In this document: piece after piece, positions 916-18,776 of the stretch
Layout of the letters: every line of letters begins with the position of its first letter
Position numbering within the stretch: the first letter of the stretch is position 1
DNA from: a virus
DNA length: 24,694 nt
Virus record (IMG/VR): IMGVR_UViG_3300035070_000110
Location: 1 to 24,694 of that record
Reading direction: 5' to 3' (one strand)
Made by a program: the position numbers and the translations under genes
The notes under the pieces: generated by a model
The model's input: only the letters and a program-made list of their open reading frames with translations
Databases searched by the model: none
Told to the model about the DNA's origin: nothing

Positions 916-1821
916 ATGGCTATATCACGCGCCCAGCTCCTTAAAGAGCTATTACCCGGTCTGAATGCTTTATTCGGTCTTGAGTACGATCAGTACGAGA
1001 ATGAGCATGCAGAGATTTACGAAACTGAAAACTCAGATCGTAGCTTCGAAGAGGAAGTGAAATTATCCGGTTTTGCAGCAGCCCCAGTGAAAGCTGAAGG
1101 CCAAGCAATTTCTTACGATAATGGTCAAGAACACTTCACTGCTCGTTACAACCATGAAACGGTTGCAATGGGTTTCTCTATCACTGAAGAAGCTATGGAA
1201 GATAACCTGTACGACTCATTGTCAGCTCGTTATACAAAAGCCTTGGCTCGCGCTATGGCGTATACGAAGCAGGTTAAAGCAGCATCTTTGTTGAACACAG
1301 GTTTTGATACATTCACTTCAGGTGACGGATCATTCTTGTTTGCAACTAACCACCCAACTGTAGAGGGCGGCACAAACGCAAACAAACCTTCAACAAACGC
1401 TGACTTGAACGAAACATCTTTAGAGCAAGCTGTTATCGATATTGCTGCGTTCACTGACGAACGTGGTCTATTGATTGCTGCACGTCCTCGTAAGTTGGTC
1501 GTTCCACCTGCGCTTATGTTCGTTGCAACTCGTTTGCTACAAACAGAGCTACGTACAGGTACAGCGGATAACGACATCAACGCATTGCGTTCGAATGGTT
1601 CGATCCCAGAAGGCTACCGTGTCAACCACTATCTAACTGACGCAGACGCTTTCTTCATCACTACAGATGTTCCAAACGGCATGAAGCACTTTGTGCGTAC
1701 TGCTATGCAGACATCTATGGACGGTGACTTCGATACAGGTAACGTGCGCTACAAAGCTCGTGAGCGTTACTCATTCGGCGTATCTGATCCATTAGGCATC
1801 TACGGTTCACCGGGTGCTTAA
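916..1821 (+). CDS. Major capsid protein, Mu gpT-like
   Basis: This 301-residue protein would form the icosahedral shell of the head. Its N-terminus (QLLKELLPGLNALFGLEY), the central GFSITEEAMEDNLYD region and the following helix-rich segment (YTKALARAMAYTKQVKAA) resemble the Mu-type major head subunit gpT family, which takes the HK97 fold. The length is near the roughly 300 residues usual for gpT. A GGAG site lies 9 bases before the ATG. The preceding gene looks like a decoration protein, and a strong terminator follows within 25 bases of the stop, both typical of a highly expressed capsid gene. The family call is by eye. Confidence 0.85.
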   Translation: MAISRAQLLKELLPGLNALFGLEYDQYENEHAEIYETENSDRSFEEEVKLSGFAAAPVKAEGQAISYDNGQEHFTARYNHETVAMGFSITEEAMEDNLYDSLSARYTKALARAMAYTKQVKAASLLNTGFDTFTSGDGSFLFATNHPTVEGGTNANKPSTNADLNETSLEQAVIDIAAFTDERGLLIAARPRKLVVPPALMFVATRLLQTELRTGTADNDINALRSNGSIPEGYRVNHYLTDADAFFITTDVPNGMKHFVRTAMQTSMDGDFDTGNVRYKARERYSFGVSDPLGIYGSPGA

Positions 1822-4449: not shown

Positions 4450-5133
4450 ATGGCAGTAGTAACCCCAGACCTCCCAGAACTTTTTGAAGAAGCCTATGAA
4501 AGGGCAGGTCTTGAGATGCGTTCTGGCTATGATCTCAAAACGGCTCGAAGGAGCCTTAACCTTTTAACATTGGAGTGGCAAAACCGTGGGCTTAATCTCT
4601 TCACTATTGAAGCTGGTACTCTTTCCATTACGGCAGGCACAGCAACTTATACATTACCTGCGGACACGATTGATCTCATCGAACACCAAGTCCGAACAGG
4701 TACAGGTACAAATCAAACCGACACCTCCCTCCAAAGGATCAGTGTCGCAACCTACGCCCAGCAAACCAACAAAGAAACGCAAGGTAGGCCGACCCAAATC
4801 TTCATCCAAAGGCTCCCCACGGAAGTCAAAGTAACATTATGGCCTGTGCCTGATGCAACAACTACATACACTTTATTTTATTATAGGTTGAAGGGTATCG
4901 ATGGTTTATCTTCTGGTATTGGTGGTGATGTATCTACTGTTCCTCCTCGTTTCGTTCCGGCTCTAGTTTCTGGTTTGGCTTATTATTTATCCATGAAAAG
5001 ACCAGAGGCAGCGCCTCGCGCTCAAGCACTTAAACAAGAATATGAATTTCAGTTTGAGTTGGCAGCAGGTGAGGATGAGGAGACAGCATCAATTAAGTTT
5101 GTGCCTTTTGATACGTTTATGACAGGTGCTTGA
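4450..5133 (+). CDS. Head-tail adaptor-like protein 1
   Basis: This 227-residue protein has the layout of the phage adaptor that sits under the portal (T7 gp11 / P22 gp4-like): an N-terminal helical part (ELFEEAYERAGLEMRSGYDL, ARRSLNLLTLEWQNRGLNLF), a central beta part (YTLPADTIDLIEHQV, VKVTLWPVPDATTTYTLFYY) and a C-terminal helical part (FVPALVSGLAYYLSMKRPEA). The stop overlaps the next start as ATGA at 5133. A second protein of the same general design is at 6400-7056, so the two may form successive rings or serve different joints. The family is recognised by eye, with the usual length. Confidence 0.75.
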   Translation: MAVVTPDLPELFEEAYERAGLEMRSGYDLKTARRSLNLLTLEWQNRGLNLFTIEAGTLSITAGTATYTLPADTIDLIEHQVRTGTGTNQTDTSLQRISVATYAQQTNKETQGRPTQIFIQRLPTEVKVTLWPVPDATTTYTLFYYRLKGIDGLSSGIGGDVSTVPPRFVPALVSGLAYYLSMKRPEAAPRAQALKQEYEFQFELAAGEDEETASIKFVPFDTFMTGA

Positions 5134-5924
5134 TGAGTTACGCAAAAGCTAAATATGCTTATGGTTTCTGTGATAAGACAGGGTTTCGTTACCCGTTGAA
5201 AGACCTTGTGCCTGAGTTTAACAACGGCGTGAAGACTGGTTTTCTTGTTGGTAGAGACGTAGTTGACCCAGATCAGCCACAGAACTTCTTGGGGCGTATA
5301 AAGATTAACGACCCTCAGTCTCTTAGGAATCCTCGCCCAGATACATCTCAGACAGAAAGCAGGGCGTTATTTGGGTTTAACCCTGTAGGCAATAATGCAG
5401 TCTTTATGACTGCGTCCGTTGGGAGAGTAACGGTTTCTATTACTGATACAGGTAGCGAAATAGTTAGTCCTACAGGTGTAGCAGCATCTACAGGGGTTGG
5501 TTCTGTTACAGTTCCTAGAGACGATGTAACTGTAAGTCTCACAGGCGTGGCGGCGACTTCTGCTATAGGATCGCCCACTATAAGCACAAACGTTACTACA
5601 CTTATTGTAACTGTTGCCAACCCCGGTTCTGGAAACAAATACTATATTGATGGAGTTCAGCAAGATACTCTTAGTCTTTCTGAGGGTCAAACATATCGAT
5701 TCGATCAATCAGATAATACCAATTCTGGGCATCCATTACGTCTTTCAACCACCTCAGATGGTACTCACAACAGCGGCTCAGAGTATACAACAGGTGTAAC
5801 AACAAGCGGCACTGCGGGCAATTCGGGTGCTTATACACAAATTACGGTGGCTTCCGCAGCGCCAACACTGTACTATTATTGTACAAACCACTCAGGAATG
5901 GGTGGGCAAATTAACACACCGTAG
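5133..5924 (+). CDS. Virion-type protein with C-terminal cupredoxin-like domain
   Basis: The ATG at 5133 overlaps the previous TGA; an in-frame TTG at 5130 is less likely. Of 263 residues, 1-90 form a conserved-looking N-terminal domain (YGFCDKTGFRYPLKDLVPEF, VGRDVVDPDQPQNFLGR). Residues 111-150 carry two units of the TG repeat found in the gene at 7815 (VSPTGVAASTGVGSV, VSLTGVAATSAIGSP). Residues 155-260 look like a cupredoxin: YYIDGVQQDTLSLSEGQTY, then His200, and Cys250-x-x-His253-x-x-Met256 in YYYCTNHSGMGG, a complete type 1 copper ligand set with amicyanin-like Cys-His-Met spacing. There is no signal peptide. A tail or head appendage is likely; copper binding is unproven. Confidence 0.75.
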   Translation: MSYAKAKYAYGFCDKTGFRYPLKDLVPEFNNGVKTGFLVGRDVVDPDQPQNFLGRIKINDPQSLRNPRPDTSQTESRALFGFNPVGNNAVFMTASVGRVTVSITDTGSEIVSPTGVAASTGVGSVTVPRDDVTVSLTGVAATSAIGSPTISTNVTTLIVTVANPGSGNKYYIDGVQQDTLSLSEGQTYRFDQSDNTNSGHPLRLSTTSDGTHNSGSEYTTGVTTSGTAGNSGAYTQITVASAAPTLYYYCTNHSGMGGQINTP

Positions 5925-6393: not shown

Positions 6394-6406
6394 GTTCAAA
6401 TGAACT
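6393..6406. repeat. Intergenic palindrome copy B, AGTTCAAATGAACT
   Basis: AGTTC and GAACT arms flank AAAT. The first base is the last base of the preceding TAA stop, and the ATG of the next gene (6400-6402) lies inside the palindrome. If it forms an RNA hairpin, the start codon would be half in the loop and half in the stem. Confidence 0.85.
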
Positions 6407-7056
6407 ATTCTGAGTTATTACAGCTTATACAAGATTACACGGAGAACGATGAAACATCTTTCGTGACCAATATCCCTACGTTTGTGCGACAGACAGAAGA
6501 GCTGGTGAATCGTACAGTAATGATCCCAGAGCTTCGCAAGAACGTGACGGCAAACTTGGATAACGCAAATCCTTACATGGCTAGACCCTCAGACTTCTTG
6601 GCACCGTTTTCGTTTGCCGTGATAGATGGCAGTGGTAACTACACATTCTTAATTGAGAAGGATGTAAACTTCATGCGTGAAGCATACCCAGATCAAACAT
6701 CTACTGGCACACCTAAGTACTATTCCGAATTTGATGGTGACTTTACATCAACAGGGTCTCCGGGGAACTTTATCTTAGGGCCAACGCCTGACTCAGATTA
6801 TTTAGTTCAATTGCACTATTACTACGATCCGCCTTCAATCGTGACATCTAGTACATCTTGGCTTGGAGATAACGCTGAAGAAGTATTACTGTATGGAAGT
6901 TTGGTGAACGCATATGTTTACATGAAGGGTGAGGCTGATGTTCTTGCCATGTACAAAGAAAGATACGATAACGCCTTACGTCGATTGCTGGTATTAGGAG
7001 AGGGCAGATTGAAACGCGATAGCTATCGTGACGGCGAACCAAGGTTAGATATGTAA
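6400..7056 (+). CDS. Head-tail adaptor-like protein 2
   Basis: This 218-residue protein has the same plan as the product of 4450-5133: an N-terminal helical segment (YSELLQLIQDYTENDETSF, VRQTEELVNRTVMIPELRKN), a beta core (NFILGPTPDSDYLVQLHYYY) and a C-terminal helical part (EEVLLYGSLVNAYVYMKGEA, YKERYDNALRRLLVLGEG). This matches the phage adaptor family that links portal to tail. The ATG lies within palindrome copy B and only an AGGA 14 bases upstream could serve as a ribosome site, so initiation may be unusual. The stop overlaps the next ATG (TAATG). Confidence 0.8.
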   Translation: MNYSELLQLIQDYTENDETSFVTNIPTFVRQTEELVNRTVMIPELRKNVTANLDNANPYMARPSDFLAPFSFAVIDGSGNYTFLIEKDVNFMREAYPDQTSTGTPKYYSEFDGDFTSTGSPGNFILGPTPDSDYLVQLHYYYDPPSIVTSSTSWLGDNAEEVLLYGSLVNAYVYMKGEADVLAMYKERYDNALRRLLVLGEGRLKRDSYRDGEPRLDM

Positions 7057-7814: not shown

Positions 7815-9014
7815 ATGGCGGATGCCAGAGTAATATTTACAGGTTGGGGCCGAAGTAGCTGGAGTAGCGGTACTTGGAGTAATCCAGCCGTTACCCTTCC
7901 TTCGGCTGCTGGTCAGGTAGGCACTGTCACGGTTGTTGGCAATGCCCCAAATATTGCTGTCACTGGTCTTGGCGCAGTTACTGGCGTTAGCAGTGTTTCT
8001 GTTGAGGGAGCAGCTACTGTTCCAAGTACAGGCATTGCTGCTACGGGTGGCATTGGTGATGTAAGTATTCTTACTGGCGCAGTTGTTTCACCCACTGGTG
8101 TTGAAGGCACGACAGCAGTTGGCTCTGTTGTTGCATCTATCCCCGGAGAAGTTTCCGTTATTGGCATACAAGCAACCACTGCGGTTGGCTCTGTTACAGC
8201 TACGGGTACAGCTAGTGTTACTCCTACGGGTCTTACCGCCACAGGTGAGGTTGGTGGGCTACCGACGCAACCAGTTGGTCAAGAGGCTACGGGCGCTGTA
8301 GGCGTTGTATCTATCAATGGTACAGTTAATGCCGTTATTACAGGCTTAGAAGGTACGAGTGCTGTAGGGTCTGTAACTGTATCTGGTGATGCTCCAAATA
8401 TTCCTGTCACGGGTATCGCTGCTACAGGCGGTGTTGGTTCTGTCACTGTTGTTGAGGGCGCTGGTGTAGGGATTAATGTCACTGGTGTTTCTAGCACGTC
8501 TGCTGTTGATTCGGTTACTGCCACTGGTGGTGTTGAGATTACACCTACTGGACTTGCAGCAACAAGTGCATTGAATGGGGTTACTGCTACAGGATTGGCG
8601 AGCGTTCCAGTTACAGGTCTTGAAGCTACAGGTATTGTAAACGGACTTCCTCAAGATGTTACTGTTTTCTTAACTGCCGCTGATGCTTCGGGTTGGGGTC
8701 GTAGTTCTTGGAGTTCAGGAACTTGGAGTCAGCCTGTAGCTACCAGCCTTGGTATGTCAGGTAGTGTTGGTGCTGTAACAGTAGATTTATTAATTCAAGT
8801 CCCAGTTACAGGGTTAGAGGTGACAACTGGCGTAGGTTCTGTTAGTATCGCCACAGGTACGGGAATTGATGTCCCAGTTACAGGGGTAGAAGCGACTGGA
8901 TCGGTAGGGCCAAGAGGAGTAACAGTTTGGGGTAGAATAGTTCCAAGTGAAACTGCAACATGGACAATGATTGCACCAAGCACAACAACAGAGTATACTG
9001 AAATTAGACCTTAA
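7815..9014 (+). CDS. TG-repeat virion protein with two GWGRSSWSSGTW motifs
   Basis: The 399-residue protein consists of a Trp-rich motif (GWGRSSWSSGTW, residues 10-21), then about twelve units of 20-23 residues of the pattern VPVTGLEATGAVGSVTV, the same Trp-rich motif again (residues 293-304), two more TG units, and an end containing WGRIVPSETATWTMIAP. It is almost free of charged residues in the repeats. This is the profile of a long beta-repeat appendage exposed on the virion. An AGGAG site precedes the ATG. Repeat units also occur in the products of 5133-5924 and 16416-16712. Host-contact or spacer roles are inference. Confidence 0.8.
   Translation: MADARVIFTGWGRSSWSSGTWSNPAVTLPSAAGQVGTVTVVGNAPNIAVTGLGAVTGVSSVSVEGAATVPSTGIAATGGIGDVSILTGAVVSPTGVEGTTAVGSVVASIPGEVSVIGIQATTAVGSVTATGTASVTPTGLTATGEVGGLPTQPVGQEATGAVGVVSINGTVNAVITGLEGTSAVGSVTVSGDAPNIPVTGIAATGGVGSVTVVEGAGVGINVTGVSSTSAVDSVTATGGVEITPTGLAATSALNGVTATGLASVPVTGLEATGIVNGLPQDVTVFLTAADASGWGRSSWSSGTWSQPVATSLGMSGSVGAVTVDLLIQVPVTGLEVTTGVGSVSIATGTGIDVPVTGVEATGSVGPRGVTVWGRIVPSETATWTMIAPSTTTEYTEIRP
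7947..8920 (+). repeat. About 14 protein-level repeats, V-x-VTGLxATxxVGSV
   Basis: Units of about 20-23 residues are recognisable by TG(L/I/V)-x-(A/G/S)-T followed 4 to 6 residues later by VGSV or a variant. The DNA of neighbouring units differs a good deal, so this is an old, protein-level repeat. The run is interrupted near the end by the second Trp-rich motif (8691-8726). Confidence 0.8.
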
Positions 9015-10117: not shown

Positions 10118-11296
10118 ATGGCTAAAGGTAGAGGCGGCTTTATAGGTCAAGACGGGCTAAATGCACCAGACAGCCCTACAGGGGTAAGTGGTACGTCAGG
10201 AGATTCTTCGGTAAGCGTTGCATTTACCGCGCCGACTGATGTAGGTGGTTCTGCAATTACGGGCTACAGAGCGCAGTCAAATACTGGCGTGGGCGCTTCT
10301 GGAACTTCTTCTCCAATTAATGTTACTGGTTTATCTAACGGTACAAGTTACACGTTTAACGTGTGGGCAATCAATGCGTTTGGATATTCGTCGCCTAGTA
10401 GTCCTTCAGCTAGTTTAAGCCCTGCTGCTCAATACGCTTACATGCTTGGTTTTCAAAGTACAAATCGTGAAAGAGTCAGCATTGTTTCTTCTGGAAACTC
10501 TGCTAATTTTGGAACTCTTAGTGATGGCTCAAGAGTATTTCATGGAGCAACTTCTTCAAGCACACGAGGAATTGTTGGTGGTTCAGACCTTACTACAAAT
10601 GATTTTCTTTATTGGACTTTAGCCTCAACGGGTGTGACACAAACTTTTGGTGACGCGGCTTCAAGTGGTAATTGTAGAATGAGTGGTAATGCAACTAGAG
10701 CTATTAGCGCAAGGTCTGCTGCCGACAATAATAGTATTGAATATTTAACTATTGCTTCTACTGGAAACGGAACTGATTTTGGGGATCTCACACTCGCTCG
10801 CGGCAACACGGCTTCTGCTAGTTCTGCAACGCGGTCACTAGTCTGTGGTGGATGGCCTAGTAATGGTTTAGTTAATACAGTAGATTACGTCACGATAGCT
10901 TCCACTGGAAACGCTTCAGACTTTGGAGACTTAACTATAAACTCAGCTTTTTTTGCTGCTTGTGCGGATGGAACAAGATTAGTCTGTAGCGCACGTTTGC
11001 AAAACACAAGTCCGACAACTTATGTAAATACGATGGATTACTGCACAATAGCATCAACAGGAAATTTTACTGATTTTGGTGATGCCACGCAATCTTCAAG
11101 AACGACACAAGGAGCCGCAGGCACAACAAACGGACTGTTTATGGGTGCAGAGGCGGGGTCAGGACACAATGCTAAGTATATAGATAAAATTGTTGTTCAA
11201 ACCACAGGTAACGCTGTAGATTGGGGCGATCTTGTGAATGCAGGAAATTATAAATTTGCGGCTTGTTCAAATGCAACTGTTGCGGTTCAACCTTAA
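10118..11296 (+). CDS. Propeller-like appendage protein 1 with N-terminal fibronectin type III domain
   Basis: Residues 14-103 of 392 fit a fibronectin type III domain (PDSPTGVSGTSGDSSVSVAF, AITGYRAQ, NVTGLSNGTSYTFNVWAIN). The rest holds six repeat cores of the type DYVTIASTGNASDFGDLT spaced about 40-50 residues apart, alternating with SSATRSLVCGG-like segments. Six such cores suggest a six-bladed, Kelch-like propeller. It is the first of three tandem genes with the same repeat, and only this one has the fn3 domain. A GGAG site precedes the ATG. A host-binding spike is the likely role, inferred from position; the fold is a prediction. Confidence 0.75.
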   Translation: MAKGRGGFIGQDGLNAPDSPTGVSGTSGDSSVSVAFTAPTDVGGSAITGYRAQSNTGVGASGTSSPINVTGLSNGTSYTFNVWAINAFGYSSPSSPSASLSPAAQYAYMLGFQSTNRERVSIVSSGNSANFGTLSDGSRVFHGATSSSTRGIVGGSDLTTNDFLYWTLASTGVTQTFGDAASSGNCRMSGNATRAISARSAADNNSIEYLTIASTGNGTDFGDLTLARGNTASASSATRSLVCGGWPSNGLVNTVDYVTIASTGNASDFGDLTINSAFFAACADGTRLVCSARLQNTSPTTYVNTMDYCTIASTGNFTDFGDATQSSRTTQGAAGTTNGLFMGAEAGSGHNAKYIDKIVVQTTGNAVDWGDLVNAGNYKFAACSNATVAVQP

Positions 11297-13205
11297 AGGA
11301 GCTTTTTAATGCCAAATTATCAAGGTGTATGGTCGCTCTCAACGCAGTATCAGAATAGAACAGGTTGGCCTGTGAACAATACTGCAAATGGTATTGCTAT
11401 TGTCAGTAACGCTAGTGGGATGCAGACATTTGTTGTGACTACATTAGGAAACTCTACTGACTTTGGGGATTTTACAACTCAGAGAGGTAAGGGGGCAGGT
11501 TTTGCAAGTACCGTTAGGGGTGTAGTTGGAGGCGGTAGTGGCCCCGTAAACATAATTGATTTTATTACTTTTTTGACCGAAGGAAATGCTACAGACTTCG
11601 GCGACTTGACCGTGGCTAGAGAAGAGTGTGCAGGTCATTCAAGTTCTACTAGAGGCTTAATTGCAGGTGGTGATACAGGTAGTAAGTCGGACGTTATAGA
11701 CTACGTTACGATAGCTAGTGCAGGTAATGCCACAGACTTCGGTAATCTTGCGGCAGCAAATACTTCGCCATCAGGCGCAGGGAGCAGTGTTCGTATGGTA
11801 ATAGGTGGCGGTATTGAAGGCAGTAGCAGAGTTAATCGTATTCAGTATGTAACCATAAGTTCCACAGGTAACTCCACAGATTTTGGTGATTTGAGTTTTA
11901 ATAACGCGCAAGGCGATGCCCTTTCTAATGCTACCAGAACTGTTTTCACAGGTGGTTATGGAACTTCGTCATCGAACGTATTGGAATATGTTACCACCGA
12001 CACCACTGGAAACGTCACTGATTTTGGTGATCTTTCAGAAGGGACACGAAGGCTCGCGTCTACTTCTAATGCAACTCGTGGGGTTATGGCAGGGGGTGAC
12101 GGAACCAACTTACGCTCAAAAATAGAGTATATAACAATAGCGACAACAGGTAATTCTGCTAGTTTTGGTAACCTACTACAGGCTACGGATAGCTGTAATA
12201 GCGGATTTAGTTCTGCTCACGGAGGACTTCAATAATGCCTAAACGTTATCTAGGAAACATTATAACTGATACTCCGACAGAGCCGACAGATAACTATGGT
12301 TCTACATCGGCGAATGGCGTGTGGTCACTTGCGGAAGCTGAAAGATATACGGCGGCAGGGCTGTGGCCTACGGCAGGGAATGTAAATCCGATTGCTTTAA
12401 CAACAACTGCTAGAGATTTGAATGCAATTAGAATACGTACAATTGATCAGATTTCTATCACTACTACAGGAAACGCTACAGATTTTGGTGGAGAGACATT
12501 AAGCACTGGTACATTTAACTGTGCAGGGTTTAGCGATAGTGTAAAACGGTTTGAGGCAGGTGGTGCTGGTGTTAATGTGATACAAACTCTTAACTATTCA
12601 TCGGGTTCAAGTTCTGTAGATTTTGGAGATTTAACAGTAGCGCGAGGTGAATGTGGTGGATACTCAAATTCTACTCGCGGTATCGTCGGTGGAAGCGCAG
12701 GTGGCATTACCGGCATCGGTACGATTGATTACGTTACTATGGCAAGTGCGAGTAATGCTATCGACTTTGGCGATATGTCTGCGGCTAACAGAAATCAGCA
12801 ATGTCGCGCAGCAGGTTCACAAACAAGAGCTATTTTTGGTGGTTTTGAAAGTGAACAAAACAAGACTGACTACATTACTCCATCAACAACGGGCAACGCC
12901 ACAGACTACGGCAACCTAACAAACAACCACAATAACGCCTTTGTAGGAGCTAGCCTGACTAGAATAATCATAGCAGGTCGATATACCAGTGGGTCTGATC
13001 ATATCGAATACAACACTATTTCATCTACTGGATCATTTTCGTCTTTTGGGTCGTTATCAGTTGCAAAAGGTTGGGGTGGCACAGCCTGTAATTCTACGCG
13101 AATGGTAATGATGGGCGGCACACACTCTGGCGATGAGCAAAATGATATTTCATATATCACAATAGCATCAACTGGAAATGATACTGATTTTGGTGACTTA
13201 ACAGC
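10470..13205 (+). repeat. Eighteen TGN-x-x-DFGD repeat cores in three tandem genes
   Basis: Each of the three genes from 10118 to 13260 carries six cores of the form (I/V)xYxTxASTGNxTDFGDL, alternating with S-x-(S/A)TR-x-x-x-x-GG. The equal count of six in genes with different N-termini is unlikely by accident and points to a closed six-blade ring as the structural unit. Confidence 0.75.
11309..12235 (+). CDS. Propeller-like appendage protein 2
   Basis: The 308-residue protein begins with a short N-terminal piece (YQGVWSLSTQYQNRTGWP) related to that of the next gene. It then has six TGN-x-x-DFGD type cores (such as IDYVTIASAGNATDFG) separated by SSSTRGLIAGG-like turns. An AAAGGAG site lies before the ATG and the stop overlaps the next start (TAATG), so genes 2 and 3 are probably co-translated. 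The lack of the fn3 domain suggests that it docks through a different partner. Divergent DNA between copies argues for old duplication or separate acquisition. Confidence 0.75.
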   Translation: MPNYQGVWSLSTQYQNRTGWPVNNTANGIAIVSNASGMQTFVVTTLGNSTDFGDFTTQRGKGAGFASTVRGVVGGGSGPVNIIDFITFLTEGNATDFGDLTVAREECAGHSSSTRGLIAGGDTGSKSDVIDYVTIASAGNATDFGNLAAANTSPSGAGSSVRMVIGGGIEGSSRVNRIQYVTISSTGNSTDFGDLSFNNAQGDALSNATRTVFTGGYGTSSSNVLEYVTTDTTGNVTDFGDLSEGTRRLASTSNATRGVMAGGDGTNLRSKIEYITIATTGNSASFGNLLQATDSCNSGFSSAHGGLQ

Positions 13206-13260
13206 GAAAAAATCAGCTATGGCGGCAGGTGCTCCAAGCACACCGTCGGTAACTGGATAG
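12235..13260 (+). CDS. Propeller-like appendage protein 3
   Basis: The 341-residue protein has an N-terminal segment with GVWSLAEAERYTAAGLWP, aligned with GVWSL...WP in the preceding protein, then six repeat cores. Some are degenerate (YSSGSSSVDFGDLT, ISSTGSFSSFGSLS) and some canonical (YITIASTGNDTDFGDLT). The second core keeps DFGDLTVARGECGGYSNSTR, close to one in protein 2. The ATG overlaps the previous stop. Paralogues at one locus commonly vary in receptor range, which is a reasonable inference here. Confidence 0.75.
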   Translation: MPKRYLGNIITDTPTEPTDNYGSTSANGVWSLAEAERYTAAGLWPTAGNVNPIALTTTARDLNAIRIRTIDQISITTTGNATDFGGETLSTGTFNCAGFSDSVKRFEAGGAGVNVIQTLNYSSGSSSVDFGDLTVARGECGGYSNSTRGIVGGSAGGITGIGTIDYVTMASASNAIDFGDMSAANRNQQCRAAGSQTRAIFGGFESEQNKTDYITPSTTGNATDYGNLTNNHNNAFVGASLTRIIIAGRYTSGSDHIEYNTISSTGSFSSFGSLSVAKGWGGTACNSTRMVMMGGTHSGDEQNDISYITIASTGNDTDFGDLTAKKSAMAAGAPSTPSVTG

Positions 13261-17995: not shown

Positions 17996-18375
17996 TAGGT
18001 CAACTTATAGGCCCAATAACTGAGTTAGCAGGGGGTTGGCTCAAGGGCAAAGCAGACGCACAGGCTGCAACAGCAAAGCTCAAGCTAACAGAGGCGGAAG
18101 CGAAAGCGAAAATAATGCTCTCAAAAGAAACGTCTATAGCGGACTGGGAGCGCATTATGGCAGAGGGTTCTAGGTCAAGCTGGAAAGACGAATGGTTTGT
18201 CATTGTCCTGTCTATTCCATTAATTTTAGCCTTCATTCCGGGTGCAGAAGGTTGGGTTGATCGTGGTTTTGAACAGCTCTCCAAAGCGCCGGACTGGTAT
18301 TTTTACAGTTTAGGTATTGCCATTTCAGCGTCGTTCGGTGTGCGTGGGGCTACAGCATTCTTTAAGAGGAAGTAA
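17992..18375 (+). CDS. Holin, 3TM gene-transfer-agent-like family
   Basis: The 127-residue protein has an N-terminal amphipathic stretch (MIGQLIGPITELAGGWLKG), a charged helix (ATAKLKLTEAEAKAKIM), then SWKDEWFVIVLSIPLILAFI and a second membrane segment about 102-120 (WYFYSLGIAISASFGVRG). This order and the SWKDEWF motif match the holin family known as 3TM or GTA holins. Holins form holes in the inner membrane, letting endolysin reach the wall and timing lysis. The ATG overlaps the previous stop, and the following nuclease gene overlaps this stop. Confidence 0.8.
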   Translation: MIGQLIGPITELAGGWLKGKADAQAATAKLKLTEAEAKAKIMLSKETSIADWERIMAEGSRSSWKDEWFVIVLSIPLILAFIPGAEGWVDRGFEQLSKAPDWYFYSLGIAISASFGVRGATAFFKRK

Positions 18376-18776
18376 TGTATACTTACTTTGTTTCTTCAGT
18401 AGATAGAGTTGTAGACGGTGATACGGTAGATGTAATCATCGATCTTGGCTTTGATCTGACAAAGAAGGAGCGAGTAAGGCTTGCAGGGATAGACACACCA
18501 GAAAGCAGAACAAGAGACTTAGAAGAAAAAGCTATGGGTCTTGAGGCCAAAGATCATCTTACAGGTATGCTTGAGGGTGCTGATAGATTGATAGTCAGAA
18601 CAGAAAAAGACGGCAAGTATGGTCGGATGCTTGGTTGGTTTTATAAAAATGAAGACGCGAAGTACTCTATAAATGAGACGATGGTAGCACAAGGTTATGC
18701 TTGGGAGTACGATGGCGGTAAGAAAGAAAAAGATTTGCAGACCTTGAGGGACAAAAGGAAAGCTCCAAATGAGTAA
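18375..18776 (+). CDS. Staphylococcal nuclease-like (thermonuclease family) enzyme
   Basis: The 133-residue protein aligns by motif with the SNase family, which hydrolyses DNA and RNA phosphodiesters using calcium. Metal ligands appear as Asp14 and Asp16 (VVDGDTVDV) and Asp40 in RVRLAGIDTPESR, which also has the catalytic Arg35 and Glu43. Arg84 in KYGRMLGWF matches the second catalytic arginine. There is no signal peptide, so it acts in the cytosol or after lysis. It lies inside the lysis cassette, its ATG overlapping the holin stop and its end overlapping the endolysin by 8 bases. It could cut host DNA or thin released DNA; both are inference. Confidence 0.88.
   Translation: MYTYFVSSVDRVVDGDTVDVIIDLGFDLTKKERVRLAGIDTPESRTRDLEEKAMGLEAKDHLTGMLEGADRLIVRTEKDGKYGRMLGWFYKNEDAKYSINETMVAQGYAWEYDGGKKEKDLQTLRDKRKAPNE

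Follow-up and report, generated by a model that had tools for sequence, protein, structure and literature searches.

Background

Cupredoxins are familiar as free electron carriers and as domains of oxidases, and metals are also already known in the fibers of phages. The closest described relatives of the module analyzed here belong to the plastocyanin/azurin family (PF00127), in particular the chromosomal cupredoxin of Prochlorococcus (loci L393 and L394), and likewise have a cupredoxin fold and His...Cys-x2-His...Met ligands, and share with the module an HPF motif at the first His, an SGTPG segment, and a YYxC...GMGG ending. The Prochlorococcus protein is free, has a secretion leader, and spaces its loop as Cys-x2-His-x4-Met, whereas in phages the module is fused to other domains as the C-terminal part and has x2-x2 spacing. 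In fold, the module is matched best by rusticyanin (1rcy) and by a three-domain Cu nitrite reductase (2dv6) in its N-terminal cupredoxin domain, but these are only 12 to 19% identical to the module and function in respiratory electron transfer, not as components of virions. Amicyanin has the same Cys-x2-His-x2-Met loop (CTPHPFM), but its His-to-Cys distance is about 39 residues, against 50 in the module. The loop is also spelled out in the title of PDB entry 2vmj.

On the phage side, T4 gp37 and an alterophage have His-x-His iron sites in their fibers, associated with a Trojan-horse idea (PMC11705849). The metal there is in a virion appendage, as we propose for the module, but it is iron, bound through His-x-His within a fiber trimer, in contrast to the beta-sandwich domain of the module with its single Cys/His/Met site. 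A literature search, with most subscription papers outside its scope, found no report of a type 1-site cupredoxin module in phage appendages.

A modular phage protein with a predicted type 1 copper site

The window is the whole 24,694-nucleotide stretch that was analyzed, a 24.7-kb viral contig from IMG/VR in which virion structural genes surround the gene of interest. The relevant features are as follows.

916..1821, + strand, major head protein (phrog_371)
4450..5133, + strand, upstream structural gene (phrog_12985, and phrog_10775 tail protein)
5133..5924, + strand, modular-protein gene, 263 aa, with an N-terminal domain, TG repeats, and a predicted C-terminal cupredoxin domain
5133..5417, + strand, N-terminal domain, aa 1-95 (phrog_28581, unknown function)
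5418..5585, + strand, TG-repeat linker, aa 96-151 (read from the translation)
5586..5921, + strand, predicted cupredoxin domain, aa 152-263 (AF2, Foldseek and VIA-align, and profile homology to the Prochlorococcus cupredoxin)
5730..5732, + strand, His200 codon, first predicted copper ligand (100%, 36/36 diverse intact members)
5880..5882, + strand, Cys250 codon, predicted copper ligand (100%, 36/36)
5889..5891, + strand, His253 codon, predicted copper ligand (100%, 36/36)
5898..5900, + strand, Met256 codon, predicted axial copper ligand (100%, 36/36; Gln is the sole replacement, in one inserted-domain group)
6400..7056, + strand, downstream virion structural protein (phrog_2941), located after the module gene where gene order is conserved

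The ATG at 5133 of the 263-aa open reading frame overlaps the stop of the preceding gene. A first-pass annotation had proposed a full type 1 ligand set at 5133-5924 (His200, Cys250, His253, and Met256) in a C-terminal domain joined to TG repeats and a phage N-terminal domain and lacking a signal peptide, and this description proves accurate: the coordinates, frame, and residues are exact, and the two other parts lie at aa 96-151 and aa 1-95. His200 is within SGHPLRLS and C250-x2-H253-x2-M256 is within YYYCTNHSGMGG, with a His-to-Cys distance of 50. The linker (aa ∼96 to 151) contains two imperfect TG repeats, TGVAASTGVGSVTV and TGVAATSAIGSPTI. Judged by eye, the protein does not start with a signal peptide (N-terminus, MSYAKAKYAYGFCDK). 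The 263-aa protein is supported as a putative virion appendage protein by synteny and by the annotations of its families (tail fiber, T4 gp9-like). A 399-residue protein encoded at 7815-9014 consists mostly of TG repeats resembling the linker of the cupredoxin protein; a gene at about this position is where some related phages have the cupredoxin module instead.

Predicted fold

AlphaFold2 (AF2) prediction of the domain with 76 homologues gives a model with pLDDT of 95.9 and pTM of 0.88, a Greek-key beta-sandwich of cupredoxin type predicted with very high confidence. With domain numbering (residue minus 150), the model has His50 just before strand 52-55, Cys100 at the end of strand 96-100, and His103 and Met106 in the loop preceding strand 107-111, so that the predicted placement of the ligands along the strands is as in cupredoxins. 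At the level of fold and strand placement, the structure prediction proposed in the first-pass annotation agrees with its assignment of the site. A single-sequence AF2 model of the whole protein (pLDDT 31) was discarded.

Each of the best 27 Foldseek matches in the PDB is a copper protein, with E values of <1e-3 for 13; they include rusticyanin, three-domain nitrite reductase, McoA, AcoP, pseudoazurin, amicyanin (E of 0.009, below the top match), and laccases. TM-scores to these solved cupredoxins are moderate (0.47 to 0.61 by query length, first 14 rows), and VIA-align superimposes 97 residues on the N-terminal cupredoxin domain (residues 24-131) of the nitrite reductase 2dv6, with a Z score of 9.8 and an rmsd of 2.5 angstrom. 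A fiber protein of phage S-SCSM1, for which a virion proteome exists (PMC9602691), also matches the predicted fold. Pithovirus and Marseillevirus metagenome entries named "beta-sandwich protein" match the model with TM-scores of 0.68 to 0.74 by query length (ranks 41, 49, and 50).

Relationship to cellular cupredoxins

The 263-aa protein scores 12.7 bits against PF00127 (Copper-bind), and the domain alone 15.2 bits, below the 21.2-bit gathering cutoff, and no NCBIfam family matches the protein. The module profile nonetheless matches a Prochlorococcus protein at an E value of 2e-7 (13 whole genomes searched), and hhalign aligns the two with a probability of 95.6 over 102 columns and with the four ligands in register. 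The Prochlorococcus protein does pass PF00127, its versions from two genomes scoring 32.2 and 26.7 bits versus the 21.2-bit cutoff, and one copy sits on a 1.66-Mb contig and is therefore chromosomal. Given this match to a PF00127-passing protein, the module is a cupredoxin by descent and not just by shape.

Profile searches against the PDB also align plastocyanins with the four ligands in register at E values of about 0.1, although these are evidence of register only, because antibodies came at similar E values in the same search; phmmer with the single sequence against the PDB returns antibody and ribosomal noise only. The likeness to amicyanin noted at first pass is only partly borne out: the loop spacing agrees, but rusticyanin and the nitrite reductase domain are nearer in fold, and the nearest cellular sequences found are picocyanobacterial members of the plastocyanin family. 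A picocyanobacterial or cyanophage route of origin is plausible, because some cyanophages carry free-standing relatives of the cellular protein. These stand-alone copies are 43 to 47% identical to the Prochlorococcus cupredoxin (e.g., S-CAM4, accession number KU686202, 166570-166902), and a plastocyanin-like cupredoxin is present in 5 of 21 Prochlorococcus genomes searched (L393 to L397). Weak Pfam matches among members of the family (At5g54830-like, CBM_4_9, FecR, and others) are below cutoff or absent on rescanning ten members, and were set aside.

Conservation and loss of the ligands

An iterated profile aligns 564 copies of the module from 379 loci, of which 420 copies have the full His/Cys/His/Met set and 14 have Gln replacing Met. 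Most of the remaining copies, split and truncated alignments aside, lack the Cys, second His, and Met together, and just three of those without these ligands retain the first His. Among 57 representatives that are <70% identical to one another, 36 are intact, 1 has Gln, and 20 are without the copper site. H200, C250, H253, and M256 are the sole columns that are 100% conserved in the 36 intact representatives, the next best being P201, F204, and Y248 at 94% each, and because these four columns alone are invariant in members so diverse, the ligand set is not there by chance. All 15 complete modules that are fused in relatives picked by the N-terminal domain, and not by the module, also keep the four ligands. 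An alignment of homologues had been set beforehand as a test of the site, and in it the ligands are not freely lost: they are invariant in the 36 and go missing wholesale.

Spacing varies, with His-to-Cys distances of 41 to 59 among relatives, and one relative (L363) having Cys-x2-His-x3-Met. The earlier observation that the His-to-Cys distance is near that of plastocyanin is thus correct as to the distance, 50, but the closeness carries no weight by itself given the spread among relatives.

The Cys, His, and Met are gone together each time the site is lost, but a tree places these losses in only two to three lineages. Many independent all-or-none losses are therefore rejected, and we down-weight this pattern and regard the invariance of the ligands as the stronger evidence. 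The only ligand change other than loss of the whole site is Met to Gln, which is a change that genuine cupredoxins make, as Gln is the axial ligand of stellacyanin. The Gln form is a domain inserted in another module; the cyanophage proteins concerned are ∼1,000 residues long and bear a YHYH domain as well. These YHYH proteins (L236:3317-6085, L244, L213, and others of L212 to L291) have several cupredoxin modules each, one intact, one ligand-less, and in some the inserted module with Gln for Met. In a cyanomyovirus tail fiber lineage (L101, L107, and L108 to L131) the domain is retained and all four ligands are gone. As ligand-less members exist, copper is not required everywhere that the module is used.

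Comparison of the source locus with 15 loci having the same gene shows 71 to 84% amino acid identity in the module while 53 to 79% of fourfold sites differ. On this pattern the module is under strong purifying selection, because the fourfold sites are near saturation yet the amino acid sequences remain so alike; near-saturation likewise excludes the possibility that the high identity arose because the module was exchanged recently. Neighboring structural genes fall to about 40 to 54% identity in the more distant loci, a contrast with the module that is inflated because the module itself served as the query that retrieved the loci.

Distribution and architecture

The module (the C-terminal 112 residues) matches 341 phage records, mostly of cyanophages but also of pelagiphages and Methylophilales phages, in proteins annotated as tail fiber, structural, or baseplate wedge-tail fiber connector. 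It is present in at least 600 IMG/VR stretches (>600 among the matches listed) and on 15 contigs of genome assemblies, mostly single-cell or metagenome bins. In PHROGs it matches inside tail fiber families phrog_30742 (E of 5e-22) and phrog_693 (E of 4e-20), for which PHROGs mentions neither copper nor cupredoxins. Among phages in culture, the module is present in S-TIM5, Bellamy, EXVC032P Baldr, HTVC028P, and Melnitz.

The N-terminal domain has a distribution of its own. A homologue of gene 4450-5133 is directly upstream of the homologous N-terminal domain in 43 loci, and among 80 loci fetched by the N-terminal domain the module is fused in 17, 15 complete and 2 cut by contig ends. No module is found within the examined flank in 37 of the 80, where many of the proteins are ∼114 residues, and the module is therefore not essential to this type of appendage. 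The other 26 loci have an N-terminal-domain protein of ∼155 residues, and the neighboring gene encodes a distant cupredoxin domain (L418:3445-4092 and ∼25 similar loci among L413 to L489), so that absence of a fused module cannot be equated with absence of any module. The ligands His/Cys/His/Met are present in the five of these distant genes that were read. In the one neighbor gene scanned, that of L418, the distant domain is fused to a T4 gp9/10-type N-terminal domain (PF07880). The protein that pelagiphage HTVC027P encodes at this position shows weak similarity and has an unrelated C-terminus. The copper module thus recurs at this genomic site in more than one form, and the N-terminal domain is probably an anchor for exchangeable outer parts, because its loci show such varied C-terminal forms.

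Interpretation

The reading that we favor, and consider reasonably probable, is that the gene codes for a genuine cupredoxin domain with an intact predicted type 1 copper site, carried as an exchangeable module on a virion appendage and most likely involved in host contact. We propose that the protein is present in the virion, acquires copper after lysis, and displays the loaded domain for host contact. The N-terminal domain would fix the protein to the phage particle, and the TG repeats would act as a spacer holding the cupredoxin domain, which would be exposed on the outside. The copper site is probably empty when made, because the phage assembles in the cytoplasm and the protein is without a signal peptide, and would be filled from the lysate or from seawater after release. 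The loaded domain would most likely serve attachment, through metal-dependent rigidity of a binding face or, alternatively, by docking to the host surface or to a copper-handling component; we guess at attachment before other roles because tail fiber, baseplate, and small appendage proteins are the ones among which the module travels.

The evidence disfavors three other readings, in differing degrees. The domain could be an adhesion or spacer element of cupredoxin fold that holds no copper in life, similar to the Ig-like modules of tail fibers, with the ligands being relics or packing residues. Persistence of ligand-less homologues in cyanophage tail fibers suggests that the fold functions without the site, and the cytoplasm where virions assemble has almost no free copper, but we regard this reading as unlikely, because relics would drift singly, whereas the ligands are the sole invariant columns in the face of near-saturated synonymous divergence, their losses are complete, and the one other change is to the natural axial ligand of stellacyanin. 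It is less likely still that the four residues bind another metal, such as zinc, or form a redox-active thiol site that provides stability or covalent contact with the host. Phage fibers do use other metals, as in the His-x-His iron sites (PMC11705849), but the residues fit type 1 copper sites in kind, spacing, and position along the strands, as does the fold, and the homologues of known class are copper proteins. Stand-alone relatives of the Prochlorococcus cupredoxin in some cyanophages might point to a soluble, host-directed electron carrier (an auxiliary metabolic protein) that is not part of the virion; this is very improbable for a domain that is fused to a conserved N-terminus with no obvious signal peptide, has structural genes on both sides, and elsewhere is fused to tail fiber and baseplate proteins.

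Under the favored reading of a copper-binding appendage module, many ocean virus particles may bear a copper site on their outer parts. A conserved copper-site module distributed over tail fiber, baseplate, and small appendage proteins of common ocean phages would provide marine virions with a redox metal site, tie infection to copper supply in a way that can be tested, and contribute ligands to ocean copper chemistry. A broader proposition, that several unrelated lineages of ocean phages have copper-loaded type 1 centers on their tails for host recognition or redox sensing, is tentative and on balance doubtful. If true, the tail copper centers would be the copper counterpart of the iron Trojan-horse idea, and virions would also count among the strong copper-binding ligands of seawater. 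The module also provides a lead to function for PHROG tail families without a domain annotation, and as module-bearing phages are in culture, these proposals are testable now.

Other features of the window

Three adjacent proteins encoded in 10118-13260 have in common repeats of the type ASTGNATDFGDLT...TRGIVGGG that are perhaps beta-propellers, and the first of the three starts with a fibronectin type III domain. Further downstream, 18375-18776 codes for a Staphylococcal-nuclease homologue (PF00565, E of 1.4e-15), and the gene right after it has a weak peptidoglycan-binding match.
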